19,940 nt of DNA from Thermoplasmata archaeon. Its GTDB lineage: Archaea; Thermoplasmatota; Thermoplasmata; Thermoplasmatales; Thermoplasmataceae. Location: contig JAJZOK010000045.1 of assembly GCA_021811525.1 (NCBI GenBank), forward strand, positions 1 through 19,940, in the 5' to 3' direction. The translations under genes were made by a program, and so were the position numbers. Under the pieces are notes generated by a model, which was not told the DNA's origin, searched no databases, and was given only the letters and a program-made list of their open reading frames with translations. Below are positions 1 through 19,940 of the stretch, piece after piece; position 1 is the stretch's first letter; every line of letters begins with the position of its first letter.

Positions 1-490
1 TACCTTGTCCTTTCCTGAAAAGTTCCTCTATCTCCTCGAGATCCGGTATGCGCAGGTAATCAATGTTATGCGCGCCTCGTTTTTCCTTTGATAGGTATGG
101 CCCCTCGCATCTTATTCCAAGAACCTTGGCTCCTTGCTTCTGGTTGTGAATTATGTTATGGTATTTCCTGAATTGCTCAAGTATGGAATCCAGGGGAAGT
201 GAAACTAGTGATGGGACGAACGAAGAAACACCTGTGGCGTACAGTTTCTCGCCCCATTCCTCAATATCTTGCTGTTCACCGAAATAAGCGTCGATTCCAA
301 AATACCCGTGTGTATGGATATCAGAATATGCAGGGAGAAGCATGTAGTCCTGAAGATCATAATCTAAATAATGACCAGAAGATTCTCCTACAGATTCTAT
401 GAGCCCTTTGTTTAATGATATAATCGAATTATCCAGGGAATTTTTTCCTGTATGTATTTTCCCGGCTCTTATGCTATAGGACTCAGACAA
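1..490 (-). CDS. nagA: N-acetylglucosamine-6-phosphate deacetylase, NagA (N-terminal 163 residues; runs off the left edge)
   Basis: NagA removes the acetyl group from GlcNAc-6-phosphate, giving GlcN-6-phosphate and acetate in the cytoplasm. The visible part has the family's N-terminal small beta domain, then PAYSDIHTHGYFGID (residues 53-67), where H59 and H61 form the HxH metal motif of the amidohydrolase superfamily. It also has CEGPYLSKEKRGAHN (128-142), the NagA hallmark EGP with metal ligand E129 and the KxGAH substrate loop. Family members have about 380 residues, so roughly 220 lie outside the window. The frame opens after a TGA at 502-500. The only early start is TTG at 490-488, preceded by AGGAG at a spacing of about 5 nt, so this downstream operon gene has a ribosome binding site. 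It lies 59 nt after namZ and should be co-transcribed with it. It takes the GlcNAc-6-P made by MurQ. The family is recognised with high certainty; the TTG start is less certain. Confidence 0.9.
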   Translation of the reverse strand, partial: MSESYSIRAGKIHTGKNSLDNSIISLNKGLIESVGESSGHYLDYDLQDYMLLPAYSDIHTHGYFGIDAYFGEQQDIEEWGEKLYATGVSSFVPSLVSLPLDSILEQFRKYHNIIHNQKQGAKVLGIRCEGPYLSKEKRGAHNIDYLRIPDLEEIEELFRKGQG

Positions 491-549
491 TTCTTCTCCT
501 CATTGTTCTTTCTGCCTTAATTTTTGTGCCTCTTTGAAAAATAGTACTC

Positions 550-1635
550 TCAATAAAGGTGAAACTGTTTTGTATTCTCCCTGAAATCGTCCTGTTCTGC
601 TTTCCAGCTATGCATGATTTTATCGACGGAAGTACCCGATTCAAGCATCTTGTAGAGTTCATCAGAACCATACAGCCTTGAAAGCTTTTGCCTGTTGATG
701 TTAACAGAATCTAATTCATGGAGCTTAACAAGAATCGTTAATGCTAATCTGAATGGATCATATTTTTTCCTGTCTGTGATGTGAATGAAATAGCCATCAA
801 CAAGTTCTCCGCCAAAAGGATCCAGTGTGGGCCTGTATTTTGTTCTCCTCAGCACCACACCTTCCTGGTAATGGTCAAGATCCGGGAAGCCGGGTTTGCC
901 AAAGAAATGAAACGGGTAAGGTGTGCCTCTTCCCACTGAGAGATCGGTTGCTTCTAGCAGGCAGAGACCGGAATAAGTTATCACTGAATTCATGTCTGGA
1001 AGATTCAGCGAGGGCGGGATGAACCAGCTGAATATATCGTCGAAATAGTAACTTCTTGAGTAATCTGTCATCTTTACCACCTTAACATCAGCGCTGAATC
1101 TTCTGTTGAAGAAGAGTGCTAATTCACCGATGGTTAATCCGTATCTTGAAGGCAAGTTGTCTGTGCCTACGAAAGAACGGAACTCTTCCCTGAGGACAGG
1201 GCCATTTATGTCTTTGGAATTGAGCGGATTGGGCCGGTCCAGAACATACAGAGGAATATTGTTCTCACTTGAGGCTTCCACTGCATTGTACAGTGTTGAA
1301 ATAAAAGTGTAGAACCTTACACCTGCATCCTGGATATCATAAACGAGAAAATCCAGGCCATCTAAGTCACTCATATTAGGCTTCATCCTGGATCCGTAAA
1401 GGGAAGTAGCTTCTATTCCCCTGTAAGAAGAGTCATCTATTTCCGCACCATTTGACTCTGTGCCATAAAGGCCGTGTTCTGGCGTGAAGACTTTCCTGAT
1501 GTTGAAACCTTTGGATATGAGAAAGTCAATGTTTGGTTCAAGTTCGCTTGTTACGCTGCCTATGTTGGTGATCAGACCCATTCTTCCTGCTGGCAGGTTT
1601 CCTTTTGCATTATCTATCCCTAAGTTGAACATCAT
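550..1635 (-). CDS. namZ: Exo-beta-N-acetylmuramidase NamZ (GH171, DUF1343)
   Basis: NamZ-family enzymes release MurNAc from the non-reducing end of peptidoglycan glycan fragments. This 361-residue protein shows the DUF1343 blocks in order: MGLITN (19-24), TPEHG (51-55), LVYDIQDAGVRFYTFISTL (97-115), LDRPNP (132-137), a GPVL...FRSFVG block (145-157), PPSLNLP (207-213) and LLEATDLSVGRGTPYPF (226-242). There is no signal peptide, so it should be cytosolic, whereas some bacterial NamZ proteins are exported. ATG codons at 1635 and 1632 are both possible starts; a G-rich stretch (AGGGG) lies just upstream. It follows the DUF218 gene by 7 nt and precedes nagA by 59 nt, so the three form an operon. 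In B. subtilis the homologue YbbC sits with nagZ and murQ, and both partners are in this window. Family assignment is firm. Activity on MurNAc is inferred from the family and the neighbours. Confidence 0.92.
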   Translation of the reverse strand: MMFNLGIDNAKGNLPAGRMGLITNIGSVTSELEPNIDFLISKGFNIRKVFTPEHGLYGTESNGAEIDDSSYRGIEATSLYGSRMKPNMSDLDGLDFLVYDIQDAGVRFYTFISTLYNAVEASSENNIPLYVLDRPNPLNSKDINGPVLREEFRSFVGTDNLPSRYGLTIGELALFFNRRFSADVKVVKMTDYSRSYYFDDIFSWFIPPSLNLPDMNSVITYSGLCLLEATDLSVGRGTPYPFHFFGKPGFPDLDHYQEGVVLRRTKYRPTLDPFGGELVDGYFIHITDRKKYDPFRLALTILVKLHELDSVNINRQKLSRLYGSDELYKMLESGTSVDKIMHSWKAEQDDFRENTKQFHLY

Positions 1636-1642
1636 TCAGCCC

Positions 1643-2173
1643 CTATTGCCCCTTGTAGAGTTCGTGCATGGTGAAAAGCCTCTGCTTTATGGCTTCTACG
1701 TCTCCATCAGATATGCCTGAAAAGAAATGCCTGGCAAGTTCCATTGATTTTTCCTCCATTATGTCCGTTCGCATGAAATCGAAACAGTGGGTAAAGTCAA
1801 ACTTGTAGCCTGGGCCGAAACACTTCTGGAATATGAATTCCGATCGTTCCATGTGATAGCAGGAACTCACTACGTATATTATTTTGGGCAGGAATTTTCC
1901 ATGGACTTCCATCATACAGAACACACCGTTGCCTATGGTATCCAATGCCTTTTCTTCAAGGATTATTGAAGTTTCAGGAACTCCCTTTGAGAGGCAGTAT
2001 TCTTTCATTACCTGTGCTTCTGACTTATTCAGTGCATGATTGGTAATTCCACCGGAAAGGAGCAGCTTTGTGTCAGAATTAAAGAGCTTGATGGCAACGT
2101 CGAGCCTACCCTTGAGTTCATCGTGTATTTCATTTCCGTTTACCCTGCTTCCCAGTACGATTATCAATTCCAT
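1643..2173 (-). CDS. DUF218 (YdcF/SanA/ElyC-like) protein of unknown function
   Basis: This 176-residue protein has the DUF218 pattern: an N-terminal beta strand ending in VLGSR (6-10), a charged helix with GRLD (22-25), LLLSGG (37-42), SEAQVMKEY (51-59), ILEEKALDTIGNG (71-83) and a late VSSCYHMER block (102-110). Bacterial members (SanA, ElyC, YdcF) are linked to envelope integrity or peptidoglycan precursor metabolism, but no reaction is established. Unlike SanA and ElyC it has no N-terminal membrane helix, so it is predicted cytosolic. It is the first gene of the operon with namZ and nagA. A TATA-like box at 2195-2201 lies about 25 nt before its ATG, which fits a leaderless transcript. In this setting it may act on a sugar-phosphate or muropeptide intermediate, but that is a guess from context. 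The family call is solid. Confidence 0.82.
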   Translation of the reverse strand: MELIIVLGSRVNGNEIHDELKGRLDVAIKLFNSDTKLLLSGGITNHALNKSEAQVMKEYCLSKGVPETSIILEEKALDTIGNGVFCMMEVHGKFLPKIIYVVSSCYHMERSEFIFQKCFGPGYKFDFTHCFDFMRTDIMEEKSMELARHFFSGISDGDVEAIKQRLFTMHELYKGQ

Positions 2174-2194
2174 CTGATTCTGGCTCTAACCTTG

Positions 2195-2201
2195 AATAAA
2201 C
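2195..2201 (-). promoter_or_regulatory. TATA-like box for the DUF218-namZ-nagA operon
   Basis: On the minus strand the sequence reads GTTTATT, centred about 25 nt upstream of the ATG at 2173. No Shine-Dalgarno sequence precedes that ATG. This is the expected spacing for an archaeal promoter that makes a leaderless mRNA. Confidence 0.5.
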
Positions 2202-2276
2202 AGGACTCTCTTAAGTCTTGACCTGCTGCCAAACTTGATGGATTGCAAGATCAAATTGCATCACTCCATGACATCA

Positions 2277-2282
2277 TTTATA
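2277..2282 (+). promoter_or_regulatory. TATA-like box for the GNAT gene
   Basis: TTTATA is centred about 28 nt upstream of the TTG start at 2308. The spacing supports transcription starting at or next to that TTG and helps decide the start in the absence of an early in-frame ATG. Confidence 0.55.
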
Positions 2283-2307
2283 GGTGACATGACATTCTTT
2301 TTCAGAA

Positions 2308-3138
2308 TTGGATAGTGTACCATACGCAGTAAGTGAAGCATTGGACGAAGACTTCGATGACATTATGAGCTACCTGAAAAGTAAACTTCCTTTTTCAGTA
2401 AACATGGCTGCATCAATCAGGGACCACCGAGAAAGGTGCAGAGTGCTTGTTGCTCGCCAAGGTAACCTCATTGCAGGTGTTCTTGTGGAATTCCATTCTA
2501 CCTATAACAGCCACATCTGGCTTGACCCAATCATCTGGATGACGGGAAATTCGGAAGTCTCTTCTATACTGTTGCGTGAGAGAGGTTATGGCCGATCTAT
2601 TATCATTTCCCAGGCAGATTTCTCATCACTAATTCCAACTGAAATACCTGCAATTAGAGTCTTTGAGGAATTCTTTATGTCTGTTCGCCTGGAGAAATTC
2701 TCGGGAAAAGAGATCACTCCCGACGTTAATGTTAGGCGCCTGGAAATATCCGATGCTGATGATTCACTGAAGCTATCAGGATACAATGTTGAGTTGATCG
2801 ATCAAATAACCAGGGAAAAGGAAGAGAATTTTCTAAAGGAGCGGTTTTGCTTTGGCCTATATGCAAATGGCCAGCTTGCATCGAGAGGGGCAATTATGTC
2901 CATAACAGATGACTATGCCTCTGTCGGGGCATTTTTTACATTGAAAGCTCTCCGAAACAGAGGATATGGCTCAACTATTGTTTCTGAAGTGATAAAACAA
3001 GCTTCTTCTAAATCACAGAGTGCCTGCCTGTTGGTAAGAAGCACCAATGACAATGCAATTTCCCTTTACAGTAAACTTGGGTTTGATGTTGTAGGGAAAG
3101 CTTACTTCACAGACTTAGGAACGGGCCTAATGCCTTGA
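2308..3138 (+). CDS. GNAT-family N-acetyltransferase with two GNAT-like halves
   Basis: The C-terminal half is a typical GNAT domain: a beta strand SVGAFF (205-210), the acetyl-CoA pyrophosphate loop LRNRGYGS (215-222), and the closing helix and strand ISLYSKLGFDVVGKAYF (251-267). The N-terminal half (about 1-130) keeps a GNAT-like layout, with LVARQGNLIAGVLVEF around 47-62 and ERGYG (91-95), but is diverged. The 276-residue length is about twice a single domain, so this is probably a tandem GNAT with one active half. The TTG at 2308 is chosen because of the TATA box about 28 nt upstream and the lack of an in-frame ATG before residue 33. The acceptor is unknown. The surrounding pathway makes GlcN-6-P, D-amino acids and lysine or DAP, any of which has a free amine, but nothing in the sequence selects one. 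It converges with the D-aminopeptidase gene, 26 nt apart. Confidence 0.78.
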   Translation: MDSVPYAVSEALDEDFDDIMSYLKSKLPFSVNMAASIRDHRERCRVLVARQGNLIAGVLVEFHSTYNSHIWLDPIIWMTGNSEVSSILLRERGYGRSIIISQADFSSLIPTEIPAIRVFEEFFMSVRLEKFSGKEITPDVNVRRLEISDADDSLKLSGYNVELIDQITREKEENFLKERFCFGLYANGQLASRGAIMSITDDYASVGAFFTLKALRNRGYGSTIVSEVIKQASSKSQSACLLVRSTNDNAISLYSKLGFDVVGKAYFTDLGTGLMP

Positions 3139-3164
3139 CATTTATGCTCTTTTTCTGAATTCAG

Positions 3165-3983
3165 TCAATATTTCCCGTGATCAAAATCTGAAAGCGATGC
3201 AAGCACTCTGAATGTATTGTATGCCTGAAGCATGTTTTCTGCCATTGCAGCCACTGTGTATCCATCCAGCCTTCTTATTCCATTGAAGATCATGCAGTTA
3301 TCGGCCATAGCAGGATTATTGAACTCAACTTTCACTTCTACTGCCCCTTTCACCTTAAGAATGGTGCCCTTCCTGGAAATGGAACTCCTGGAAGCTTCCC
3401 TGAGTGCATCCAGGGCTGCATCCATTGAAAGAGAATCCGCAGAGTACCTGGACAAACCTTCCTTTAAAGACACAAATTCACAGTCCCTGAGGTATTCCTG
3501 TGCTTCTTCCACTGCTTGCTTGTCTCCTGCAACCATCTTAACCGGAACGTTAAATTCACCTGCAACTGCTGATGTCAGGTAGGTTTCCCCGGCTTCAAAA
3601 CCGTTTATGTAAACTCGGTGGATGTTTGTTGAATAAGTATGGCTGAGTACTCCGTCAAGGGTGCCAGCCCTGCTGTGGTATCCAAGCAGAACAAGTGCTT
3701 CAGTATCCTGCACGCCCTGAGCCATGCTCAAAGGCTTTGGCCAACCGAGAATCACCCTAGCCCTGCGGTCAATGGTTGAGGCATCGAGGTTCCTGTTTCC
3801 ATCATGGGCATCCACTGCCTTTACTTCAGTTGCTCCACCAAGATACAGGCCTTCTATGACAGCGTTTGTGCTCTTTACCATGGCTTCCTTGCCTACCTGG
3901 TAATCCCTCTCCCCTGGCAGAACCTGGGTACCGTATGTTACACCTTGGAGACCTTCAGCATCAATGGAAACTAGGACTTTCAT
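3165..3983 (-). CDS. dppA: D-aminopeptidase, M55 (DppA) family
   Basis: M55 enzymes are zinc D-aminopeptidases that free D-Ala from peptides such as D-Ala-D-Ala. This 272-residue protein opens with MKVLVSIDAEG, giving D8 and E10. Next come AVDAHDGNRNL with H60, LGYHSRAGT with H103, HTYS with H115, and NGFEAGE with E133. These match the zinc ligands (D8, E10, H60, H104, E133) and the putative nucleophile H115 known for B. subtilis DppA almost position for position. There is no signal peptide, so it is cytosolic. It lies 19 nt after the class II amidotransferase gene on the same strand and probably shares its transcript. In B. subtilis dppA heads the dipeptide transporter operon that continues into ykfABCD; here the same functions are spread over several transcripts. 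The activity is well supported; the natural substrate, D-Ala from stem peptides, is inferred from the neighbours. Confidence 0.93.
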   Translation of the reverse strand: MKVLVSIDAEGLQGVTYGTQVLPGERDYQVGKEAMVKSTNAVIEGLYLGGATEVKAVDAHDGNRNLDASTIDRRARVILGWPKPLSMAQGVQDTEALVLLGYHSRAGTLDGVLSHTYSTNIHRVYINGFEAGETYLTSAVAGEFNVPVKMVAGDKQAVEEAQEYLRDCEFVSLKEGLSRYSADSLSMDAALDALREASRSSISRKGTILKVKGAVEVKVEFNNPAMADNCMIFNGIRRLDGYTVAAMAENMLQAYNTFRVLASLSDFDHGKY

Positions 3984-4002
3984 GCTCTTCCATCACTTTG
4001 AT

Positions 4003-4803
4003 TCATAAAAGGATCGTTTCATTGCTTTCCACTGTCTTGCACCCGGAAATTCTTTCCATTGCCACACAGCCCGTAACTCCAATGGAATAGATTGTGCCGG
4101 GAGAGAGCGGGACTCTCTCAACACCAGATGGAAAATCCTTTGCTTTCAGCAGGCTTGAGGAAACAACTGCAGAGCACCTGTCTCCCTTAACTAGATACAG
4201 GCGATGGTACAGATCAAAATTCCTGGCATCTGAATATACATAGGTTTCCCGGGACTGAGTTTTCCTGTTGACTGCAAGGAATAAAATGTTGAGCCCTGAT
4301 TTTAAGGAGTCAGTTGAGTATACCTCTTCAATAGCAGTCCTGAGCTTCTCCATCGGGGTTCCTGGGAATTTTCCTAGCATGTTCAGGAAGACCTCGCTGT
4401 CTGATCTTGTTTCCTTGAACTCCCTGGTAAATTGGTTTGTAAGCTTTGTCTTGTCTATCCAGCCATTGTGGGCAAGATACACATCGTAATCATCAAGGGG
4501 CAGATGGAATGGATGTGTGCTGGTCAATGTGAGAGGTTCCCCAACTGTGGCATTCCTTGCATGTATCATGCGAATGTCTCCCCCGAAGCTATTCTGGTAT
4601 GACTGAAATATCGGATCCAGGAATTTCTCGAATCTTAGAAAGCGGGTTCCTGAATCCACATACCCCCAACCGTCCTTGTGGTCAAGAAACTGTTTATGCT
4701 GAAGATCGTGAAGAGGATCATTCCTGCTCACCTCCCTCAGAGATTTTAGGAGGGAGTCGAACACTTGCTCGTTGTTTCCCGTGAAGAGAAGCATCCTGCA
4801 CAT
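4003..4803 (-). CDS. Free-standing class II glutamine amidotransferase-type Ntn hydrolase (GATase_4/YafJ-like)
   Basis: The protein starts Met-Cys, so removal of Met exposes C2 as the N-terminal nucleophile of class II glutaminases. Other conserved positions are present: HKDGWGYV (42-49), IHARNAT with R83, THPFHLP (96-102), AHNGWI with N113-G114 for the oxyanion hole, and TRSDSEVF with D135 for binding the substrate amino and carboxyl groups. At 266 residues the protein is only the amidotransferase domain, without a synthase or ammonia-acceptor domain. A TATA-like box lies about 28 nt before the ATG, so it heads a leaderless operon with the D-aminopeptidase gene. The pairing with an enzyme of D-amino-acid peptides suggests an amidase acting on amidated or gamma-linked glutamate in stem peptides, such as D-isoglutamine, but this is speculation. 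A general glutaminase remains possible. Confidence 0.82.
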   Translation of the reverse strand: MCRMLLFTGNNEQVFDSLLKSLREVSRNDPLHDLQHKQFLDHKDGWGYVDSGTRFLRFEKFLDPIFQSYQNSFGGDIRMIHARNATVGEPLTLTSTHPFHLPLDDYDVYLAHNGWIDKTKLTNQFTREFKETRSDSEVFLNMLGKFPGTPMEKLRTAIEEVYSTDSLKSGLNILFLAVNRKTQSRETYVYSDARNFDLYHRLYLVKGDRCSAVVSSSLLKAKDFPSGVERVPLSPGTIYSIGVTGCVAMERISGCKTVESNETILL

Positions 4804-4827
4804 TGGGTACAGCTACCTTATACAAGG

Positions 4828-4834
4828 ATAAAAA
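4828..4834 (-). promoter_or_regulatory. TATA-like box for the amidotransferase-dppA operon
   Basis: On the minus strand TTTTTAT is centred about 28 nt upstream of the ATG at 4803. No ribosome binding site precedes the ATG, so the transcript is probably leaderless. Confidence 0.5.
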
Positions 4835-4867
4835 TTCTTTCGGCTTCCATGGGAAGCAATGAAAAGG

Positions 4868-4875
4868 AATAATTA
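4868..4875 (+). promoter_or_regulatory. TATA-like box for murQ
   Basis: AATAATTA is centred about 24-25 nt upstream of the murQ ATG at 4896. With the opposing box at 4828-4834 it makes a compact 92-nt divergent promoter region between the amidotransferase gene and murQ. Confidence 0.45.
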
Positions 4876-4895
4876 GTCAATGTCATCCCTTTTCA

Positions 4896-5761: not shown

Positions 5762-5783
5762 TACCCAAATGGCATCCTATGGC

Positions 5784-6854
5784 ATGATCAAGCAAATTTC
5801 TTACAGAAAGCTTGAACTTCCAATGGTTAAGCCATTCAAGATTGCACTTGGTGCGACCAACTCTTACGAAGGCTTTCTCGTTTCCATTACCACTGATGAT
5901 GGAATCACCGGATATGGGGAGGCAACCACTACTCCTTTCATCACAGGGGATACCTTAGGATCGATAGAATATGAACTCAAGTTCTTCTCAGAGGTCCTGG
6001 CTGGAAAAGAAGAGTCCCCTGAACAGTTGAACGAGTTGATGAAGAGCCTGCTTAAAGGATCTAAAGCCAGCAGAAATGCCATAGACTGTGCTCTCTGGGA
6101 TATTATAGGAAAAAGGGCAAAAACCAATGTGAGAAAACTGCTCGGAAATTACAGGAAAAAGATAAGCACATCATATACCGTTGATCTTGTTGAGCCTAAA
6201 CTGGCCAGAAAACAGGCTGAGGATCTATTGTCTCATGGAATCCAGGTTTTCAAGATCAAGATGGGCAGCGGTTTGGAACAGGATCTTGAACGTGCCAGGG
6301 TAGTCAGGGAAGTCATAGGGCTGGAAAAAATGGTCTACGTGGATTTCAATCAGGCATACACTGCACGAAAGACCATAGAGATATCCAGGAAGCTTGCACC
6401 CCTGAATATTGAATTCCTGGAACAGCCTGTGCCTATGCATGATATCAGGGGATTGAAATTTGCCAGGCAGCATTCAGATATCCCAGTTTTTGCAGATGAA
6501 GCTATATTCAGCACTGACGATGTAGTAAATGTGCTTGAAAATGAAGCTGCGGATGGAATCAACATCAAGCTCATGAAATCCGGCGGAATAACTGAAGCAA
6601 TCAAAATGGCAAGCGTTGCTGAAGCCTATCGCGCACCCGTCATGATTGGCTGCATGGTGGAAACAAGGGTCGCAAATACTGCGGGCCTCGCTGTTGCGCT
6701 TTCCAGATCTGCAGTGAAATACAGCGATCTCGATGGATACAGCAGCATCATTGAGGATATTGCCACGGACGGGATAACTTTGACAAATGGAGAAGTGTCA
6801 GGACCAGACATCCCCGGTGTTGGAGTGAGCCTCAAGGAAAAATATGCAAAATAA
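5784..6854 (+). CDS. ykfB: L-Ala-D/L-Glu (dipeptide) epimerase, enolase superfamily
   Basis: This enzyme inverts the alpha carbon of D-Glu in L-Ala-D-Glu, so that the wall-derived dipeptide becomes an ordinary L-dipeptide. Counting from the upstream ATG at 5769 (361 residues), it has the N-terminal capping domain and then the muconate-lactonizing-type barrel. KIKMG carries K162 and K164 (base), the metal ligands are D192 (VDFNQ), E218 (FLEQP) and D243 (ADEA), and K267 (IKLMKSGG) is the second catalytic lysine. A late DLDGYSSIIED block matches the dipeptide-binding DxDG motif of L-Ala-D/L-Glu epimerases, which argues against muconate or succinylbenzoate enzymes. I prefer the ATG at 5784 because of the TATA spacing and because family members begin close to this point; 5769 adds five residues. 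The gene lies next to murQ and is functionally linked to the NlpC/P60 gene at 8364, as ykfB is to ykfC in B. subtilis. Confidence 0.9.
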   Translation: MIKQISYRKLELPMVKPFKIALGATNSYEGFLVSITTDDGITGYGEATTTPFITGDTLGSIEYELKFFSEVLAGKEESPEQLNELMKSLLKGSKASRNAIDCALWDIIGKRAKTNVRKLLGNYRKKISTSYTVDLVEPKLARKQAEDLLSHGIQVFKIKMGSGLEQDLERARVVREVIGLEKMVYVDFNQAYTARKTIEISRKLAPLNIEFLEQPVPMHDIRGLKFARQHSDIPVFADEAIFSTDDVVNVLENEAADGINIKLMKSGGITEAIKMASVAEAYRAPVMIGCMVETRVANTAGLAVALSRSAVKYSDLDGYSSIIEDIATDGITLTNGEVSGPDIPGVGVSLKEKYAK

Positions 6855-8281: not shown

Positions 8282-8303
8282 GGTAATTGACAACACTTAG
8301 TTG

Positions 8304-9098: not shown

Positions 9099-10298
9099 CT
9101 ATTTCTTCTTCGTATACTTGAGAAAAACAATAGATCCAATAGCAGCAATAATTATGACACCACCAATGGCAAAAAAAGCCAAATACGCCGTTATGGGAAC
9201 TGAACCGGAGTAAAAGGTGAATGAAGAAGTTGCAGTTCCGTTAGATCCTGAGGAGTCAAGTACTATATTGTTTGTACCTGATTGGGGCATATAGTTGAGA
9301 GTCTGATTATTTGAAATGAGTTTTCCATTATCATACCAAGAATAGGTGTAATTTCCAATCCCCACTCCGTCAGGAAAAGAGCCGATTAGAGTTACCATGT
9401 GTCCTTTTGGAGTCGTTGTAAAAGAAAACGAGGTGGAAGCCTTAATTGGATTTCCCCCTGAAAGTACGGTTATTGCTACGGTGTGCACTGAACTGAATGT
9501 TGGCATGTGAATGTAAAGCGATGAAACGTTCTGCCCGTTCAATGTATCCATTCCGTAGAAACTGATATTGGGGTCGCCAAGGTATGGTCCTGGAGCATAT
9601 TGCCATTTTCCAGCTGGATCTGTCTGCACGACGGTCCCTCCACCGATGTACAACATGGCATGACCCCCACCTGCTCCGCCATCAGCAACCATGTCTCCTG
9701 GTGAGAGAAACCAAGCTGGGTACATGCTATCATTTGTGACGTAATAGATTGAAGCAAGCGGGGAGCCCTGGTAACTGGCTGGTATCGGCTGATAACCCAA
9801 GGTGGATTCCACCGTGGAATTCGTAGAAAACAAGGAAATATGATATCCTGCAAGGAAGTCCACAAGCCTGTAGACCCCGACAATTCCATAGCTTCCCACA
9901 AACGCTCCTCCATCATATCCAACTAGATTGTCCCCAGGCGGGTTAGTTGCAAGTGTTGTTAATCCTCCCGCAATAAGGGCTTCAGATACGAAATGTGCAC
10001 AGTCCTCAGAATTATAGAAATAATCGAGGTTCTTCTGCAGCTGGGATTGGTTAATTCCTGATGGGTAATACTTCTGGTGGTAATACTTTGAGTCCACCAG
10101 ATTAGCAAAGTTTACTGCATTAGATGGATCATAGTGATAAAACGAGTACCCAGGTGGTATGGTGGCTGTGCTACTTTGTACAAATGGCGCTGCTTCAGTA
10201 GATTGGAGGCTGGAATTGCCTGCACCAAGAGAAGTGAGGAGCAGAATAATTGCGAGTGTTAATGCCGAAAGAGCTACAATAAATTTCGTAACTTTCAT
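9099..10298 (-). CDS. Surface-anchored Amidase_6-like cysteine hydrolase with Ig-like stalk and C-terminal membrane helix
   Basis: The 399-residue protein starts with a signal peptide (KFIVALSALTLAIILLL, about 5-26). Residues 55-260 resemble the putative amidase domain PF12671: YDPSNAVNFAN (56-66), then EDCAHFVSEALIAGG (98-112) with candidate nucleophile C100. A late GGHAMLYIGGGTVVQTDP block gives H213 and perhaps D227 as the rest of the papain-like triad. Residues about 270-365 form a beta-rich Ig/PKD-like stalk. A membrane helix (about 372-394) and a KYTKKK tail end the protein, so the catalytic domain faces outside. Several NxS/T sequons are present. It has its own TATA box 25-26 nt before the ATG and sits behind the transporter operon. 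It is the only visible exported hydrolase and so the best candidate for loosening external peptidoglycan or cutting its cross-links. The bond cleaved is unknown; a plain peptidase is possible. Confidence 0.78.
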   Translation of the reverse strand: MKVTKFIVALSALTLAIILLLTSLGAGNSSLQSTEAAPFVQSSTATIPPGYSFYHYDPSNAVNFANLVDSKYYHQKYYPSGINQSQLQKNLDYFYNSEDCAHFVSEALIAGGLTTLATNPPGDNLVGYDGGAFVGSYGIVGVYRLVDFLAGYHISLFSTNSTVESTLGYQPIPASYQGSPLASIYYVTNDSMYPAWFLSPGDMVADGGAGGGHAMLYIGGGTVVQTDPAGKWQYAPGPYLGDPNISFYGMDTLNGQNVSSLYIHMPTFSSVHTVAITVLSGGNPIKASTSFSFTTTPKGHMVTLIGSFPDGVGIGNYTYSWYDNGKLISNNQTLNYMPQSGTNNIVLDSSGSNGTATSSFTFYSGSVPITAYLAFFAIGGVIIIAAIGSIVFLKYTKKK

Positions 10299-10439: not shown

Positions 10440-11462
10440 TCACACAGGATGGAAACAGGCTACATAGTGACCAGGTTCTATCTCAGTCAGTTCAGGCCTT
10501 TCATGTTCACATTTCTCAGTCTTGAAAGGGCATGAATGTGCAAATGAACAACCTTTGATTCCTCCGTTGTATGCATTGTAGTCAATATCGGTTGCACGCT
10601 CAGTAGGTGATAGCCCCTCAAGTTCAGGCACTGATCTGATTAGAATAGCTGCATATGGGTGCCTTGGGTTTGCTGTTACTACTTCAGACGGCCCGTATTC
10701 CACGATCCTCCCAAGATTCATGACTGCCATTTTCTCTGATATGTACCTGGCAGTGGCAAGCTCGTGTGAAATGTAGATCATGGAAAAATTGAATTCCTTT
10801 TTCAGGTCTGACAATAGATTCAAAACTTGAGCGCTAATGGAAACATCAAGCATTGAAGTCGGCTCATCCGCAACAATGAATTTTGGATTCAGGATGAGTG
10901 CCCTGGCTACTGCGACCCTTTGCCTCTGTCCGCCGGAAAGTTTCCTTGGGAAGAGGTCAAGGAAAGTCTCTCCCGGTGAAAGGCCCACCTTGTCAAGCAT
11001 CCTGGAAACTCTCTTTCTGATTTCATCTGCAGTGAGTTTTATTCCTTCTTTCTCCTCAACAGCCTTCTTGTTTATGAGAAGCGGCATTGCGACAGTCGAG
11101 TAAATTGTATCATAAGGGTTAATTGAAGAATAAGGGTCCTGGAAAATCATTTGCGTATTTCTCCTGAATTCCTTGAGTTTGTTTCCCCTAATACGTCCAA
11201 CTTCAGCGCCCTCAAACTTGATACTTCCTTTTGTAGGCTGAAGGAGTTTTACCGCAGTCAGGCCCAAGGTAGTTTTACCACTGCCGCTTTCTCCAACTAT
11301 GGAGATGCTTTCTCCTTCCTTAAGGGATAGATTTACACTGTCCAAAGCGTAGTTTAGAACATGGCCGGACTTGAATACCTTTGAGACATTCCTGAAGACA
11401 AGTATTGCATTTTCATCACTAAATATCTCCTGTGCATGCGATGATAAGGTTTCGTTCTCCAT
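10440..11462 (-). CDS. oppF: Oligopeptide/dipeptide ABC transporter ATPase (OppF/DppF-like)
   Basis: This is one of two ATPases powering the peptide importer at the inner face of the membrane. In 340 residues it has the Walker A motif GESGSGKTT (57-65), a Q-loop in MIFQDPYSSINP (104-115), the ABC signature LSGGQRQR (174-181), Walker B FIVADEPTSMLD (194-205), and the switch His in ISHE. The C-terminal oligo_HPY extension begins at RHPY and holds four cysteines, C305, C311, C318 and C336, the spacing seen in peptide-transporter ATPases proposed or shown to bind a [4Fe-4S] cluster. The start codon directly abuts the stop of oppD, so translation is coupled. It is the last gene of the operon and is followed by a T-rich terminator. 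The family is certain; the substrate, muropeptides or stem peptides, is inferred from neighbouring genes. Confidence 0.95.
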   Translation of the reverse strand: MENETLSSHAQEIFSDENAILVFRNVSKVFKSGHVLNYALDSVNLSLKEGESISIVGESGSGKTTLGLTAVKLLQPTKGSIKFEGAEVGRIRGNKLKEFRRNTQMIFQDPYSSINPYDTIYSTVAMPLLINKKAVEEKEGIKLTADEIRKRVSRMLDKVGLSPGETFLDLFPRKLSGGQRQRVAVARALILNPKFIVADEPTSMLDVSISAQVLNLLSDLKKEFNFSMIYISHELATARYISEKMAVMNLGRIVEYGPSEVVTANPRHPYAAILIRSVPELEGLSPTERATDIDYNAYNGGIKGCSFAHSCPFKTEKCEHERPELTEIEPGHYVACFHPV

Positions 11463-13375: not shown

Positions 13376-13378
13376 AGG

Positions 13379-14377: not shown

Positions 14378-14397
14378 GTAATTTACATAATATTTTT

Positions 14398-14414: not shown

Positions 14415-14425
14415 TGGAGTAAAGA

Positions 14426-16267
14426 TTATTTCTCTTCCTTACCGCCTTTCTTGCCCCTCATTGTTAGGCCAACTATGGCAGCTATGACTACAACAGCAGC
14501 TATTCCGCCACCTATGTAATATATCATATTGCCACCCAGACCACCAGTTGAGGTAGTGTTAACTGGGGGTGAACTGACCACAGTAAGCTGCAGGAGGTTG
14601 TATGGGTCGTCGATAGACAGGTTGGAGACTTCTCCAGTGACCCTAGCATTGTTATATGCAACGTAGTTGAATGCATTGGACAATGGAACCATCGGGACCT
14701 GCTGGTCTATGACCTGCTGGACTATTGAAAGGTTCTGTTCAAGCTGGGCAAGGGTTGTTGCATTCTTGCTGAGATTCAGGTATTTGTCCACTGTGGCGTT
14801 GGTATAGTTCTCAAAGTTCCAGCCACCGTTGATAAAGGCTCCAGTTGAGTTATAGTATCCTTCGTATGCCTGCTGCAACTGTATGTATGGGTTTGTCACT
14901 GAAGGTACATATCCAAAGTATGTAGTCTGAATGAAGTTAGACAAATTCAGGTCTTGTGAAACCCATGTTCCTATTGGAATGACATCGACCTGTGCATTAA
15001 TGCCTGCTGCCTGAAGCTCGTTTGCTATTGTTGTGCCAGATGCTACCCAATCAGCAACTGCTGATGGTTCCTGAACAAGAAATTGTACCATTGCGCCAGT
15101 CTTATTGTTTACGAAGAACTTACCGCCGGCCGGTATGTGGTATCCTGCCTTTTCGAAGTACATCTTTGCCAAAGAAACATTGTACTGGTAGTATGTCAGA
15201 TTCTTTGCCCAAGCATATTTCATAATGCCCGGGAGACCACCGAATGACATGTTGTTCTTTCCAGCCTGACCAATTCCATCTTCGTCTTTCTGCATAATGT
15301 ATGACTTGTTCAGTGCATATGAAACACCGATTCTGAAGTTGGTGTTGTTGAACGGTGCAACCTTGTCATTCATCCAGAGATAGAAGACATACGGTGCAGC
15401 TTCCTTGACATTCGTGATGTTGGCCTGGGTTGTCAATGCATTATAGTCGCTCAGTGCAGGGTTGACTGCAGATATTGCTCCCTTTTCCAGTGCAAGGTCT
15501 GCTGTTGCAGTAGATGTGTATTTCTGAACATAGTAGGTACCTATGTGCGGAACGCCCATCCAGAAGTGTGGGTTGGGTTTGAGTTCAGCACCAGCTACAT
15601 TTATGTTTGACAGTACGAATGGCCCAGCTGTTATTTCCTGGCCATATGGTCCCATGTTAGTATAGCCGCCTATTTTGCCAGGGTTTCCATTATCATAAGC
15701 GCTCCAGGCAGATGGTACGATTGTCTGGGTAGCTATGTACTGGAACCAGAGAATGTTCTGGCTGGACAATAGGAATGTCACTGTGGTGTTATCAGGAGTT
15801 GAGACGCTCTTTATAACAGGGGTGATTCCATTGAAGTCTAGGGTCTGGTTATCCTTTAAGATCTGGAATGTAAATGCAACATCCTTAGAAGTTATCTGAC
15901 CAGCAGGGGTTGTTCCATTTACCCACTCGGCGTTGGGGTTCAAGTGGAATGTGATAGTTTCGGTCCCATTGGCGTTGTTTGAGGTGCTCCAAGAGGAGGC
16001 AAGCCAAGAGGTAAAGTTACCACTGGGCCACTGGTATGCCAGTTGAGTTGCATACATATCCTTCACCAGGATTGTCGCAAGGCTGTTAGATGCTGTCAAG
16101 GGATTTAAGTCGGCCACTGAGGTGTCAACTGCTGAACCAAAAATAAAAGTTCCACCGGAATTCGTATTGGTTGCCGCGTTGGATCCGGGGAGTGCAGCTG
16201 AGAAACCAATGGCCACAAATGCAACGACTACAAGAGCCGTCGCAAGTTTAAGACCTGTGATTTTCAT
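14426..16267 (-). CDS. oppA: Extracellular peptide-binding protein of the ABC transporter (SBP_bac_5, OppA/DppA-like), C-terminally membrane anchored
   Basis: This captures peptides outside the cell and hands them to the permease. Counting from the ATG at 16267 (613 residues), it has a signal peptide with a hydrophobic core (about 6-24) and no lipobox cysteine. The SBP_bac_5 body follows, with GTFIFGSAVDTSVADLNPL as its opening strand, the NPNAEWVNGT and SKDVAFTFQI segments, and a C-terminal lobe ending near PYNLL. A Thr/Ser/Gly linker, a membrane helix (IYYIGGGIAAVVVIAAIVGL) and a basic-acidic tail anchor it, the usual archaeal alternative to a lipid anchor. Many Asn sequons suggest glycosylation. 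The open frame reaches 16321, but a TATA-like box centred about 28 nt before the ATG at 16267, and the normal signal peptide this start gives, favour 16267. The ligand is not readable from sequence; context points to cell-wall peptides or muropeptides. Confidence 0.93.
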   Translation of the reverse strand: MKITGLKLATALVVVAFVAIGFSAALPGSNAATNTNSGGTFIFGSAVDTSVADLNPLTASNSLATILVKDMYATQLAYQWPSGNFTSWLASSWSTSNNANGTETITFHLNPNAEWVNGTTPAGQITSKDVAFTFQILKDNQTLDFNGITPVIKSVSTPDNTTVTFLLSSQNILWFQYIATQTIVPSAWSAYDNGNPGKIGGYTNMGPYGQEITAGPFVLSNINVAGAELKPNPHFWMGVPHIGTYYVQKYTSTATADLALEKGAISAVNPALSDYNALTTQANITNVKEAAPYVFYLWMNDKVAPFNNTNFRIGVSYALNKSYIMQKDEDGIGQAGKNNMSFGGLPGIMKYAWAKNLTYYQYNVSLAKMYFEKAGYHIPAGGKFFVNNKTGAMVQFLVQEPSAVADWVASGTTIANELQAAGINAQVDVIPIGTWVSQDLNLSNFIQTTYFGYVPSVTNPYIQLQQAYEGYYNSTGAFINGGWNFENYTNATVDKYLNLSKNATTLAQLEQNLSIVQQVIDQQVPMVPLSNAFNYVAYNNARVTGEVSNLSIDDPYNLLQLTVVSSPPVNTTSTGGLGGNMIYYIGGGIAAVVVIAAIVGLTMRGKKGGKEEK

Positions 16268-16286
16268 TAAAATTTGGAATGGAATC

Positions 16287-16298
16287 ATATACTTAAAA
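16287..16298 (-). promoter_or_regulatory. TATA-like box for the transporter operon
   Basis: On the minus strand TTTTAAGTATAT lies with its first half centred about 28 nt upstream of the ATG at 16267. The longer upstream reading starting at 16321 would contain this box inside the coding region, so it decides the start in favour of 16267. Confidence 0.55.
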
Positions 16299-16321
16299 GT
16301 ACGTTTCAAAAAATATCCCAC

Positions 16322-16604
16322 ATTATAAAATAGTGTTTATGATAAATTGCGCGGCAATAAATTTGCTTTATTGGACAAACAAAAGAAAAATGGCTTCAAT
16401 TCGATGTCTTAAGATGAATACATTTTGGCTTCATTTTAAAATTTTCATTCTATAATTTCTTATCAATATAGTTAATTGTTAACATATGTCAATATATAAA
16501 ATGGGTTGCAAATTATAAGTAACTATGCAATCTTCCTTTTGAAAAAGCGCTTTACTCTATTGGAAAAAGGGAATATTAAAAAAAATAGAAATTCGCAGCT
16601 TCAC
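16322..16604. other. AT-rich intergenic region without a gene
   Basis: This is the longest non-coding stretch in the window, between the 3' end of the decarboxylase gene and the transporter promoter. It holds the decarboxylase T-tract at 16578-16585 and a short inverted repeat at 16355-16373 (CAATAAA, 5-nt spacer, TTTATTG) about 90 nt upstream of the transporter start, which could be an operator. I see no ORF, RNA gene or longer repeat. Confidence 0.5.
16578..16585 (-). terminator. Poly-T terminator of the decarboxylase gene
   Basis: Eight T in a row on the minus strand begin 19 nt after the stop codon at 16605, in an AT-rich context and without a hairpin, as expected for archaea. Confidence 0.5.
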
Positions 16605-17891
16605 TTAATCCTTCAAGTGTTTTGGCACATTCATTCCCCTGACTAGGTCTGAGCTGGATTCGGCTTCCCGAATGATTGAAATTTCATTGTTTCCAATTAG
16701 CACTTCGGCGGGTTTGAGGTGGCCATTGTAGTTGCTGCTCATGCTTGACACATATGCCCCCGCATTGAAAACCGCCACTGTGTCCCCCGGCTTTGCCTCG
16801 GGGAATGGAAAGTCTTTCCCAATCTTGTCTGTGCTTTCGCAAATCTGCCCCACTATGTCAACATCCCCTTGCGGTTCCCGGCTTAGATCATTTGCAATAA
16901 CGATATGGTGGAATGCGCCATATAGGGCAGGCCTCAGTAAAAGATTCATGCCTATATCTGTTCCCACGAATGTTTTGTCATAGGACTTAACATTAGTTAC
17001 TTTGCCAAGTAAGACAGCTGAGTTGGAAACCATAGACCTTCCAGGTTCAACCATTAGCACTGGTTCTTCCATACCATACTTCAAACAGGCATTTCTGAGA
17101 TTGTCCACAATACAGCTGGCTGCTTTTTCGAGATCAAGTTCTTTTTGCCCCTCTCTGTAAGGAACACCAAAGCCGCCGCCTATGTCAAGATACTGGAACT
17201 GTATTCCAAGTTCTTTCGACACATTACCAGCGAGATCGAAGTATGCCTTTGTTACTGCGTCAAAATGGTTCCAGTCCAGAACATTGGAACCTGCCATCAT
17301 CTGCATTCCAAATTTCCGCGCACCGTATTTCATTGCTTCCCTGAATGCCTCGCCCACGAGATTAACCGGAATTCCAAACTTTGCTTTAGGCCCTGCTGTT
17401 ACTATTCCAGGAAATTCTCCACCCCCAACTCCAGGATTCACCCTGAAAGAAACCACTTCAGGAAGTTGATCCTTTACAAGTCTCATTTGCGGAATGTCAT
17501 CAAAGTTGATTGCCACGCCCTTCTCTATTCCGTACTCAAGCTCGCCTTTGTGCGCGTTGTTAGGGGTGAATGCAATCATATTATGCGGAATGCCCGCCAT
17601 GTTAGCAATCTTGATTTCTTCCGGTGTTGAGCAGTCTGCACCTGCACCTTCCTGGCGAAGGATGGATATAACTGCGAGATTAGGGTAAGATTTCACTGCA
17701 TATCTGATGGAAAATTTGGTGTATCTCTTCCTGAATGCCTGGTCAAGTTTCCGGTAGTTCTCTCTTATTTTGTTCTCAGATACAACTAGCAACGGGGAGC
17801 CCATTTTATCTAATAGGTCGACAAGATCGACGTTCTCGAGGCCCAGCCGCCCATTGTGGTTTTCAAATGGATGGAAAACAGAGGCAGTCAT
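16605..17891 (-). CDS. lysA: Diaminopimelate decarboxylase-like PLP enzyme (fold type III, LysA family)
   Basis: LysA decarboxylates meso-diaminopimelate to L-lysine. The 428-residue protein has the alanine-racemase-like barrel with PLP lysine K67 in YAVKSYPN, the phosphate loop LDIGGGFGVPY (235-245), and EPGRS (282-286) with R285 for the substrate carboxylate. GQICESTDK (349-356) holds C351-E352, the LysA-type CES motif, and FNAGAYVSSMSSNYNG (375-390) holds Y380. These favour DAP over ornithine or carboxynorspermidine decarboxylases. One position is odd: where LysA usually reads HxHIGSQ, with a His stacking on the PLP ring, this protein has QMMAGSN (197-203), so that His is Met. The gene stands alone, 3' to the transporter promoter region, with an AT-rich TATA-like stretch (17916-17925) upstream. 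In this setting it could turn DAP freed from stem peptides into lysine. No other lysine-biosynthesis gene is nearby. Confidence 0.85.
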   Translation of the reverse strand: MTASVFHPFENHNGRLGLENVDLVDLLDKMGSPLLVVSENKIRENYRKLDQAFRKRYTKFSIRYAVKSYPNLAVISILRQEGAGADCSTPEEIKIANMAGIPHNMIAFTPNNAHKGELEYGIEKGVAINFDDIPQMRLVKDQLPEVVSFRVNPGVGGGEFPGIVTAGPKAKFGIPVNLVGEAFREAMKYGARKFGMQMMAGSNVLDWNHFDAVTKAYFDLAGNVSKELGIQFQYLDIGGGFGVPYREGQKELDLEKAASCIVDNLRNACLKYGMEEPVLMVEPGRSMVSNSAVLLGKVTNVKSYDKTFVGTDIGMNLLLRPALYGAFHHIVIANDLSREPQGDVDIVGQICESTDKIGKDFPFPEAKPGDTVAVFNAGAYVSSMSSNYNGHLKPAEVLIGNNEISIIREAESSSDLVRGMNVPKHLKD

Positions 17892-17915
17892 GATTTACAA
17901 GAATGTATATGCCTG

Positions 17916-17925
17916 AAATATTAAA
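17916..17925 (-). promoter_or_regulatory. TATA-like stretch for the decarboxylase gene
   Basis: The minus strand reads TTTAATATTT, 25-34 nt upstream of the ATG at 17891. It is one half of a 101-nt divergent promoter region shared with the serine hydrolase gene. Confidence 0.4.
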
Positions 17926-17960
17926 TTTAATTGAACGACAGATGGCAAGGGGTTGGAACC

Positions 17961-17970
17961 TAAATTTAAA
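17961..17970 (+). promoter_or_regulatory. TATA-like box deciding the GTG start of the serine hydrolase
   Basis: TAAATTTAAA, with TTTAAA centred 25-26 nt upstream of the GTG at 17993. There is no ribosome binding site, so a leaderless mRNA beginning near this GTG is likely. Confidence 0.5.
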
Positions 17971-17992
17971 TGTACAGAAGAAATTTGACTGA

Positions 17993-18766
17993 GTGCTTAG
18001 CAGGGATCAAGTGAACCATGTCATTAAAAATTACGGCAGTAGAGTATCAATAGGTGCTTATTATGATCAAACTGCTATTGAGGAGGTAAATCCCAAAGTT
18101 GCAAGAACTGCTGCTAGTATCGTAAAGCCATTCATCTTCCTCTATGTGCTTAAAAACCGCTGGAAATTCCATAATATGGTACTAACAGAAGATATCAAAC
18201 TGACTGACGATACCATACTCAGGTATTTCAAGGGCAGCCGTTTGAGCTTGGATGGCTTGCTTGCACTCATGACTGACATTAGCGATAATTCTGTTGCAAA
18301 TTACTTTCTGGACAGGATTGGAATTGATGAGATGAATCGATTCCTGGAGGAGGAAGGCTATCCGGATACATCATTTGGGAGACGGTTCCTTGACTCCGAT
18401 GCAAGAAAGTCTGGAAAGGAAAACTATACCTCTGTGACGGACCTCTACAGGCTTTATTATAGCATCTTAAATGGAAACATCTTAACACCAGAGGACCGAA
18501 ATCTATTCATCAGCATAATGAGAACCCAGTTCGACAGGTCAAAATTTGCACTCTATCTCCCCGAGTCCATAGAATCTGGAGGGAAGAGCGGAGTTTTAGA
18601 CAATGTCTGGAATGACCTGATTTTCTTCAGTCATAATGGTAGTACGGTCATACTCATTGGCCTTACTGAAAATTTGCCCAGCCCCGTTGCAAGAGACTTA
18701 CTGTCTTCGTATTCTTTTCATTTCATTAAGGAAAAGTATCCTAAACTTCTTCAGGACTTAGCTTAA
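17993..18766 (+). CDS. Cytosolic class A beta-lactamase-fold serine hydrolase (Beta-lactamase2 family)
   Basis: The 257-residue protein has the three penicillin-recognising-enzyme motifs in order: SxxK at SIVK (S42, K45), SDN at ISDNSVANYF (97-99) and KSG in place of KTG (198-200). The omega-loop region RRFLDSDARKSGKENYTS (130-147) does not show the usual Glu166 that class A beta-lactamases need for deacylation; Asp134 or Asp136 is the nearest acid. With no signal peptide it cannot protect a periplasm. A peptidase acting on D-Ala ends of imported wall peptides fits better than antibiotic resistance, especially as the host seems to make no peptidoglycan. The GTG start rests on the TATA spacing. 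It converges with the S13 peptidase gene, 8 nt apart, and T7 at 18781-18787 just past its stop is a likely terminator inside the end of that neighbour. The fold is certain; the substrate is inferred. Confidence 0.82.
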   Translation: MLSRDQVNHVIKNYGSRVSIGAYYDQTAIEEVNPKVARTAASIVKPFIFLYVLKNRWKFHNMVLTEDIKLTDDTILRYFKGSRLSLDGLLALMTDISDNSVANYFLDRIGIDEMNRFLEEEGYPDTSFGRRFLDSDARKSGKENYTSVTDLYRLYYSILNGNILTPEDRNLFISIMRTQFDRSKFALYLPESIESGGKSGVLDNVWNDLIFFSHNGSTVILIGLTENLPSPVARDLLSSYSFHFIKEKYPKLLQDLA

Positions 18767-18774
18767 AAGTCTAG

Positions 18775-19848
18775 TTAGAATTTTTTTGCCATTTCTGAAA
18801 GGAAAGTGTCTATCTGCATTGGTAAGGTCTCACCAGGTTCCGTTGAATTGTTGATTATAATACTGAATGAAACCTGCGGCTTTTCCAAGAAACCTGTGAG
18901 GGAAGCACAGTACCCGATGCTACCAGTCTTTGCGTGTATGCCAAGATGTGAAAGACCTGAAAGTCTCTTCTGAAGCGTACCATTTCCAGGAGATGGCAAC
19001 AATTGAAGGAATTCGCCGTCTCCCTTCTCTCGTATGGTGTGTATCAGAGACGCAAGAAGATCAGTTTTCAGCAAGTTCAACCTGGACAGCCCAGAGCCAT
19101 CAGATATTGCTATACCGTCAGTATCTAACCTTAATTGATTCAGAAAATTCAGGATTGCCTTTGTGCCGTTCTTCCAACTCCCTTTCTTTCCTGTGGTTTG
19201 ATGCCCAACATATTTTTGAAGAATCTCGGCAGAAAAATTGCAGGATACAGTTTCCATGTGAGAAATCACGTCTACCAGGCGCTCTGAATGCAGTACGTGA
19301 TCCTGAACGTTTCCTGTTTCCTCCTGAGAAATGCCAATGGAAGCTGCCTTCATAACAGAATCAAATAGTCTAGCCGGATTCCTTGCCGGCCGATGTTCAG
19401 AGCCATGTGGATTTACCAGCTTTGAGATATCCAGTGATCCTATTCCTTTTGGTACACTGCCTTCATTGACGGAGAAAGGAGAAATTTTGGACTGGTACGT
19501 ATATTTCCTGTCTTCCAGTTCCCATGTTGGCACATAAGCAACCGAATCTATTGGTGACTTCTCGAAAGTGATTTCCGGAAATTTTCCAAGGTTTCCCGAG
19601 AGTTGCCCAATGATATCCTTAAGAGTTGGGCCGTCTAAAAGCGGTGTTGGATCCCCTGATACCGAAAATCTGCCTTCATCAGCAGTGAATGTGGTCTTAA
19701 ATCTGAAGTCCTTTCCAAGAAGCCTATAAGCAGCATATCCAGTGACAATTTTCATGTTGGAGGCGGGCATCAGGGGTAGCTGGCCATTCTGTGAAGCTAT
19801 GGTATTCCCTTTGCTGTCCAGGAAAGTATAGGCAAAGATACCTTTCAT
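18775..19848 (-). CDS. dacB: D-alanyl-D-alanine carboxypeptidase/endopeptidase, S13 (PBP4/DacB) family, without signal peptide
   Basis: S13 enzymes cleave the D-Ala-D-Ala or D-Ala-mDAP bonds of stem peptides. This 357-residue protein has MPASNMKIVTGYAA with S30 and K33 (SxxK), a middle part with WELED and SPFSVNEGS blocks typical of PBP4, SCNFSAEILQKY with S202 and N204 (SxN), ISDGSGLSRLNLL (248-260), and HAKTGSIG with K307-T308-G309 (KTG). E. coli PBP4 is 477 residues with a signal peptide and a large insert after the SxxK region; here both the signal peptide and most of the insert are missing, so the enzyme should sit in the cytoplasm. A TATA-like box is centred 27-28 nt before the ATG, and a GAGGT also lies close upstream. 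It probably trims D-Ala from imported peptides, alongside DppA. The family is certain, the compartment fairly so. Confidence 0.9.
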   Translation of the reverse strand: MKGIFAYTFLDSKGNTIASQNGQLPLMPASNMKIVTGYAAYRLLGKDFRFKTTFTADEGRFSVSGDPTPLLDGPTLKDIIGQLSGNLGKFPEITFEKSPIDSVAYVPTWELEDRKYTYQSKISPFSVNEGSVPKGIGSLDISKLVNPHGSEHRPARNPARLFDSVMKAASIGISQEETGNVQDHVLHSERLVDVISHMETVSCNFSAEILQKYVGHQTTGKKGSWKNGTKAILNFLNQLRLDTDGIAISDGSGLSRLNLLKTDLLASLIHTIREKGDGEFLQLLPSPGNGTLQKRLSGLSHLGIHAKTGSIGYCASLTGFLEKPQVSFSIIINNSTEPGETLPMQIDTFLSEMAKKF

Positions 19849-19871
19849 CCAGACCTCAAGGATCTTGAAAA

Positions 19872-19879
19872 TTATTAAA
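19872..19879 (-). promoter_or_regulatory. TATA-like box for the S13 peptidase gene
   Basis: On the minus strand TTTAATAA is centred 27-28 nt upstream of the ATG at 19848. Bases 19849-19940 hold no other supported feature. Confidence 0.45.
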
Positions 19880-19940
19880 GTATCATTGGAAAGAGGTCAG
19901 TGGTTCACCAAAATGAATTTCATTCCGAACGACCTGGCCA

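Follow-up and report, generated by a model that had tools for sequence, protein, structure and literature searches.

Closest described systems and the archaeal locus

In Bacillus subtilis, the dppABCDE-ykfABCD operon lies apart from the mur cluster. The latter is given as murQ-murR-murP-amiE-nagZ-ybbC in the available extracts of PMC5061867, and import of muropeptides by an ATP-binding cassette (ABC) transporter has a bacterial precedent (PMC9790009, in extract). Archaeal peptidoglycan hydrolases were published by Strock et al. in 2025, the available text leaving killing versus scavenging open (PMC12352652). No description of N-acetylmuramic acid (MurNAc) or muropeptide catabolism in archaea was found among open-access titles and abstract openings, mostly the top of larger result sets. 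The word 'peptidoglycan' is absent from the available main text of PMC6336744, PMC5155288, PMC11349054 and PMC8975820, and PMC12448462 uses it, in its available parts, only in another sense. Here we analyse positions 1-19,940 of contig JAJZOK010000045.1 (hereafter the window), a stretch which carries an island of candidate peptidoglycan-breakdown genes.

It is likely that the window, from a probably wall-less Thermoplasmata archaeon, encodes protein families for most steps of peptidoglycan breakdown and that these work as a feeding route; we infer feeding, rather than attack or some other use. MurQ, NamZ and a NagZ-like GH3 protein are all present, the core of a MurNAc catabolic cluster of the mur-nagZ-namZ type. 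The content of a dpp-ykf operon is also found, with an M55 DppA, a peptide ABC importer and an NlpC/P60 enzyme preceded by an SH3 domain, which we take to be of the YkfC type. All enzyme activities in the proposed route are assigned by family.

Gene content of the window

Nineteen genes were taken from 26 open reading frames of at least 90 amino acids, the remaining 7 overlapping those 19:

2-490, minus strand: 5' part of nagA (N-acetylglucosamine (GlcNAc)-6-phosphate deacetylase), running off the window; TIGR00221, residues 1-158
550-1635, minus strand: NamZ, exo-beta-N-acetylmuramidase family; PF07075, PF20732
1643-2173, minus strand: DUF218 protein; PF02698, 79 bits
2308-3138, plus strand: GNAT acetyltransferase; PF08445/PF00583
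3165-3983, minus strand: M55 D-aminopeptidase, DppA type; PF04951, 268 bits
4003-4803, minus strand: class-II glutamine-amidotransferase-fold protein; PF13522, 39.7 bits
4896-5720, plus strand: MurQ, MurNAc-6-phosphate etherase
5769-6854, plus strand: predicted dipeptide epimerase, L-Ala-D/L-Glu epimerase kind; PF13378/PF02746
6878-8296, minus strand: NagZ-like GH3 beta-N-acetylglucosaminidase; PF00933, 180 bits
8301-9077, plus strand: SH3 plus NlpC/P60 endopeptidase, YkfC type, true start probably further in; PF00877, PF18348, PF08239
9099-10298, minus strand: predicted surface papain-fold hydrolase with a PKD-like domain
10440-11462, minus strand: OppF-type ATPase; PF00005, PF08352
11463-12479, minus strand: OppD-type ATPase; PF00005, PF08352
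12476-13375, minus strand: OppC-type permease; PF00528, PF12911
13379-14362, minus strand: OppB-type permease; PF00528, PF19300
14426-16321, minus strand: peptide-binding protein, solute-binding protein (SBP) family 5; PF00496, 147 bits
16605-17891, minus strand: LysA, diaminopimelate decarboxylase
17993-18766, plus strand: class A-like serine hydrolase; PF13354, 103 bits
18775-19848, minus strand: S13 (PBP4/DacB-type) peptidase, no signal segment; PF02113, 155 bits

Pfam or NCBIfam matches across the 19.9 kb back every gene that the initial annotation had listed, the surface protein excepted, and the family matches agree with its view that these genes fit one catabolic route. Two of its calls stand in part. 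The nagA frame is a 163-residue fragment that matches TIGR00221 at 84.7 bits and has no Pfam match. The epimerase is a clear MR_MLE member of the enolase superfamily; the top two structures related to it in the PDB bear the names dipeptide epimerase (3jva) and L-Ala-D/L-Glu epimerase (1jpm). It falls below all 16 listed NCBIfam cut-offs.

MurQ exceeds the cut-off of two of three curated etherase models (NF003915, 320 vs 168 bits; NF009222, 296 vs 255 bits), and its nearest solved relatives are MurQ structures (4lzj, E 1.4e-64). E79 and E110 are invariant in all 25 rows of an alignment of the window's protein with 24 of the best 120 matches listed. They lie 31 residues apart, the same spacing as that of the two glutamates which we take to be catalytic in E. 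coli MurQ. A fusion or kinase reading of two long MurQ matches (P0018, P0047) was rejected; by eye, both are repeats within MurQ.

In NamZ, PF07075 (219 bits) and PF20732 (119 bits) together span residues 20-361 of 361, and two NamZ-family structures (4jja, 4k05) are its closest solved relatives. The GH3 protein aligns with GH3 glucosaminidase structures and keeps the KHFPGHG...DSH motif.

In the peptide branch, the M55 protein aligns over its full length with DppA (1hi9), keeping Asp8, Glu10 and the GYH and GE motifs, and the NlpC/P60 protein has dipeptidyl-peptidase VI structures (3npf, 3pvq) as its best PDB relatives, followed by 3h41. LysA exceeds the cut-off of the diaminopimelic acid (DAP) decarboxylase equivalog (TIGR01048, 362 vs 298 bits). 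The S13 peptidase likewise exceeds that of the PBP4 model (TIGR00666, 118 vs 108 bits), its SxxK, SxN and KTG motifs aligning with those of S13 carboxypeptidases. The class A-like protein belongs to the Beta-lactamase2 family and matches a beta-lactamase structure (4ewf, E 2e-15). By eye, SxxK, SDN and KSG are kept in this protein, and the glutamate of ExxLN, presumably a motif of class A beta-lactamases, is not at the class A position; a peptidase role therefore seems likelier than beta-lactam resistance.

Other genes of the window are harder to place. The class-II amidotransferase-fold protein, which adjoins M55 and weakly matches the EgtC model, might at a guess cut gamma-glutamyl bonds, for example the gamma-D-Glu bond of wall peptides. 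No role in the route is evident for DUF218 or GNAT, whose genes separate NamZ from M55. On opposite strands, the earliest candidate start codons of NagZ (GTG at 8296) and NlpC (TTG at 8301) are four bases apart, and the true start of one or both is probably further in.

Retained folds could also serve another substrate, such as the archaeon's surface glycans or self peptides, with MurQ acting as a sugar-phosphate isomerase or a GKRP-like sensor. The SIS domain indeed also occurs in GKRP and isomerases, several of the window's proteins fall below equivalog cut-offs, and an earlier paper expected archaeal relatives of MupG, a MurNAc-6-phosphate glycosidase, to differ in function, archaea having no peptidoglycan (PMC6262408, in extract). 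We regard this as distinctly unlikely: residues or motifs presumed to be catalytic persist in MurQ, GH3, S13 and M55, and there are signs that MurQ and NamZ lie on the same contigs elsewhere (see below). Nor, going by what is known of the families, are we aware of any substrate other than the bacterial wall that is common to those of the route (MurQ, NamZ, NagZ, the YkfC type, DppA and LysA).

Phylogeny, host and co-occurrence

A tree of 117 of the 120 MurQ matches listed, the window's own protein among them, contained a 43-row clade (support 100/100) on a long stem, set apart from the 74 other rows. Its only named member is Picrophilus oshimae, whose MurQ shares 51% identity with that of the window and lies on a 1,545,895-base contig (P0033). 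This Picrophilus MurQ is seen without a partner among the NamZ and surface relatives listed.

NamZ (the window's protein and 59 of the 120 matches listed) similarly falls into a 34-row clade of its own, with 100/100 support, apart from bacterial rows. Archaeal-named NamZ rows also occur outside this clade, from Methanomassiliicoccales (on a long, unsure branch), Thermoplasmata, Methanomethylicia and Thermoproteota (P0196, P0207, P0220, P0238), and NamZ therefore seems to have been taken up by archaea more than once. Among these, the Thermoplasmata row P0207 groups with a Nitrospirae row, pointing to separate transfers or to mislabelling of contigs.

The transcription signals and the gene lineages both point to an archaeal host, as the initial annotation had proposed. 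In ten selected start regions of 18, the A+T fraction is 0.82 at -30 to -25 vs 0.53-0.55 at -60 to -43, and this peak lies where a TATA box is expected in archaeal genes with leaderless starts. All four opp starts have a Shine-Dalgarno-like tetramer in front of them, compared with 3 of the 14 others. Together with the grouping of MurQ with Picrophilus, and with named surface-family rows that are archaeal in four of four cases among the 86 relatives listed (Thermoplasmata, Thermoplasmataceae, an uncultured archaeon and Bathyarchaeia), these start regions argue for an archaeal host, probably a member of the Thermoplasmata. The wall-gene families are best known from bacteria, as would suit a bacterial, chimeric or contaminant contig. 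Such an origin is hardly credible given the archaeal affinities just described, the separation of the NamZ clade from bacterial rows, the even G+C content along the window (40-47%) and the apparent presence of the same gene pairs on other contigs.

That presence was assessed from exact matches in the size of each protein's longest contig, compared between homologue lists (43 MurQ, 36 NamZ and 85 surface rows), the expectation coming from pairs whose sizes differed by 1-100 bases. There were 5 exact matches for MurQ and NamZ (about 0.025 expected), 4 for MurQ and the surface protein (0.135 expected), and 3 for NamZ and the surface protein (0.12 expected). Eight contig sizes were matched overall (5819, 19617, 21631, 24905, 27169, 28004, 29318 and 38149 bases), two of them common to all three lists, and the proteins in each match have a source code in common. 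These matching sizes point to joint occurrence of MurQ, NamZ and the surface protein elsewhere.

MurQ matches were found in 121 plasmid records, all below 60% identity. A genome-collection scan with MurQ, which reached no Thermoplasmata genome, returned a single Acidobacteriaceae locus (37%; L002) in a genome that also has NamZ; there, the NamZ C-terminal domain (G001:C2:14228-14728) lies inside a 1,431-residue open frame, perhaps a fusion. In viral contigs, 14 stretches matched the MurQ alignment and 106 that of the surface protein; by tblastn, none of them proved to be a relative.

The same enzymes serve wall recycling in bacteria (PMC5061867, in extract), so the island might recycle a wall that the host makes or borrows. 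This is very improbable. No wall-synthesis family was matched among the window genes with Pfam or NCBIfam, in line with the initial annotation, and Thermoplasmatales are called mostly wall-less in the available parts of PMC6336744 and PMC11349054. On the strength of these papers, the host probably makes no peptidoglycan.

A surface protein family with a predicted papain-like fold

The protein encoded at 9099-10298 had been annotated as a surface hydrolase. The fold and the conserved residues favour this call, although no Pfam cut-off is reached (Amidase_6, 17.0 of 23.2 bits). At E up to 1, Amidase_6 was found in 33 of 43 family members and NLPC_P60 in 25 of 43. Among the 86 relatives listed, none has a precomputed Pfam domain except the odd row P0326. 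That row, of 253 residues on a 3,024-base contig, resembles the window's NlpC/P60 protein at its front and the surface protein at its tail; it is probably a chimeric assembly, yet it puts NlpC/P60 and surface genes in one sample.

Alignment of the family revealed D99, C100 and H213 to be invariant in 43 of 43 rows. When the N-terminal piece was aligned alone, D56-C57 and H170 (piece numbering) were invariant in all 58 rows. We infer from this conservation that the Cys and His form a catalytic pair. A PKD-like domain occupies residues 268-366, and hydrophobic segments are found at the N-terminus (1-28) and, anchor-like, at the C-terminus (365-396).

Because PKD/Ig-like domains dominated whole-length fold searches, the N-terminal domain (residues 44-268) was modelled alone, with a predicted papain-like fold as in the NlpC/P60-CHAP group. 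VIA-align re-ranking of candidates that Foldseek itself supplied gave wall hydrolases as the best fold matches, the domain resembling endolysins and type VI amidases, and the fold assignment is based on this ranking. By sequence, the whole protein matched nothing in the PDB better than E 0.036. The predicted fold and the conserved residues make a papain-like wall hydrolase likely.

A surface hydrolase of this kind could instead make the island mainly a weapon, killing neighbouring bacteria while the other genes mop up the debris; this overlaps with feeding, and the probabilities of the two are not exclusive. Likeness to endolysins and type VI amidases fits such a use, and archaeal wall hydrolases are able to kill bacteria, Thermoplasmata's phylum Thermoplasmatota being among those prominent in the available text of PMC12352652. 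We nevertheless consider it unlikely. Since the C-terminal anchor-like segment is present besides the N-terminal one, the surface protein is probably not released, and most of the island is, by family, cytoplasmic catabolism, which a weapon would not need.

Predicted cell location and proposed feeding route

No segment over the hydropathy threshold was found in NamZ, MurQ, GH3, M55, the epimerase, LysA, the class A-like protein or S13. The one hydrophobic segment of the NlpC/P60 frame (18-40) extends into the SH3 region; it probably belongs to that region or arises from a wrongly assigned start codon. As the enzymes have no membrane segments, wall fragments are probably imported and then digested inside the cell. 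The SBP family 5 protein, with hydrophobic segments at 15-49 and 595-613, is probably outside the cell and C-terminally anchored.

In the proposed route, the PKD-bearing papain-fold enzyme would cut bacterial walls at the cell surface, and OppBCDF with its binding protein would bring the fragments into the cell; the surface placement of both proteins is predicted from fold and hydrophobic segments. Inside, peptides would lose D-Ala through S13 and the class A-like enzyme. The NlpC/P60 enzyme would set L-Ala-D-Glu free for the epimerase to convert to L-Ala-L-Glu; D-Ala-D-Ala would be the target of DppA, and lysine would come from meso-DAP through LysA. In the sugar branch, MurNAc and GlcNAc released by NamZ and NagZ would be phosphorylated by a sugar kinase, for which the window genes gave no match. 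MurQ would then split MurNAc-6-phosphate into GlcNAc-6-phosphate and D-lactate, and NagA would deacetylate GlcNAc-6-phosphate. The predicted end products are sugar phosphate, D-lactate, amino acids and lysine.

The use of wall DAP as a lysine source, raised by the initial annotation, gains from a different organism than the window's host: Cuniculiplasma is termed a scavenger and has no complete lysine pathway (PMC5155288, in extract), so that DAP-derived lysine would be useful.

Several results weigh against a feeding route. Four proteins fall short of the specific models for their proposed activities: MurQ against the third etherase model (TIGR00274, 265 bits vs a cut-off of 302), GH3 against the NagZ equivalog (NF003740, 161 vs 207), M55 against the DppA equivalog (NF058634, 165 vs 430) and the epimerase against the L-Ala-D/L-Glu epimerase model (207 of the 500 bits needed). 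Among the 19 window genes, Pfam and NCBIfam matched no MurNAc/GlcNAc kinase, LD-carboxypeptidase (YkfA, S66), NagB or recognised MurNAc-L-Ala amidase, and the importer may carry ordinary peptides. For the surface domain, Foldseek returned no match at E <= 0.001 (best 0.059). Contig-size matches touch only 7 of 43 MurQ rows, and an organism name is attached to just 1 of 43 MurQ-clade rows and 0 of 33 NamZ-clade database rows. Picrophilus, the named cultured relative, may have MurQ without much of the island, because its contig is absent among the 86 surface and 120 NamZ relatives listed. Lastly, the hydropathy and start-region counts were made without a shuffled control.

The broader proposal is a wall-less archaeal lineage that takes peptidoglycan as a regular food, with a surface wall-cutting family of its own, Opp-type muropeptide import, MurNAc use through an archaeal MurQ clade, and a lysine auxotrophy covered by decarboxylation of wall DAP. 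We hold this tentatively, at somewhat less than an even chance. One island that combines a likely wall hydrolase at the surface with an importer and with most of a catabolic route makes the food reading directly testable. If true, it would mean a direct link of carbon, nitrogen and lysine from bacterial to archaeal biomass, a bacterial pathway long settled in archaea, and the definition of a family of wall hydrolases that is absent from Pfam.

Comparison with known systems

Judged by family, the window unites the contents of the B. subtilis mur cluster and dpp-ykf operon. It resembles the mur cluster in bringing together MurQ, NagZ and NamZ/YbbC, here in an archaeon; YbbC we take to be NamZ, and database source names use YbbC for NamZ-domain proteins. 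With the dpp-ykf operon the window shares an M55 DppA, a peptide ABC importer and a YkfC-type NlpC/P60 enzyme, and it has a candidate for the YkfB-type epimerase. It differs in that no YkfA LD-carboxypeptidase was matched and in that an amino-sugar branch and LysA are joined to this set.

The B. subtilis mur cluster, by contrast, belongs to a wall-making bacterium and includes a MurP phosphotransferase system (PTS), MurR and AmiE, with NagZ and AmiE acting outside the cell (PMC5061867, in extract). The archaeal GH3 and NamZ carry no hydrophobic segment, and the window has an ABC importer where B. subtilis uses a PTS. Among the window genes, MurP PTS and AmiE had no match and no MurR-type regulator exceeded its cut-off. 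A parallel in lifestyle is Fidelibacter multiformis, which draws carbon and energy from foreign wall fragments and forms D-lactate, the latter only predicted here; F. multiformis is, however, bacterial and also makes a wall of its own out of these fragments (PMC11652737, in extract), whereas the window is archaeal.

The modular hydrolases of Strock et al. (2025) are likewise archaeal and predicted to cut walls, with Thermoplasmatota included. According to the available text, that survey demanded both a Pfam catalytic and a Pfam wall-binding domain, so it probably missed the surface family described here, and its main text, in the parts available, has no MurQ, NlpC or recycl- terms (PMC12352652). 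The surface protein differs from the NlpC/P60, CHAP and Amidase_6 families in reaching no Pfam cut-off, in its PKD-like domain and hydrophobic ends, and in having exclusively archaeal named relatives (4/4). Its predicted catalytic domain, as modelled, nonetheless shares the fold, the Cys and the His of these papain-like wall hydrolases.

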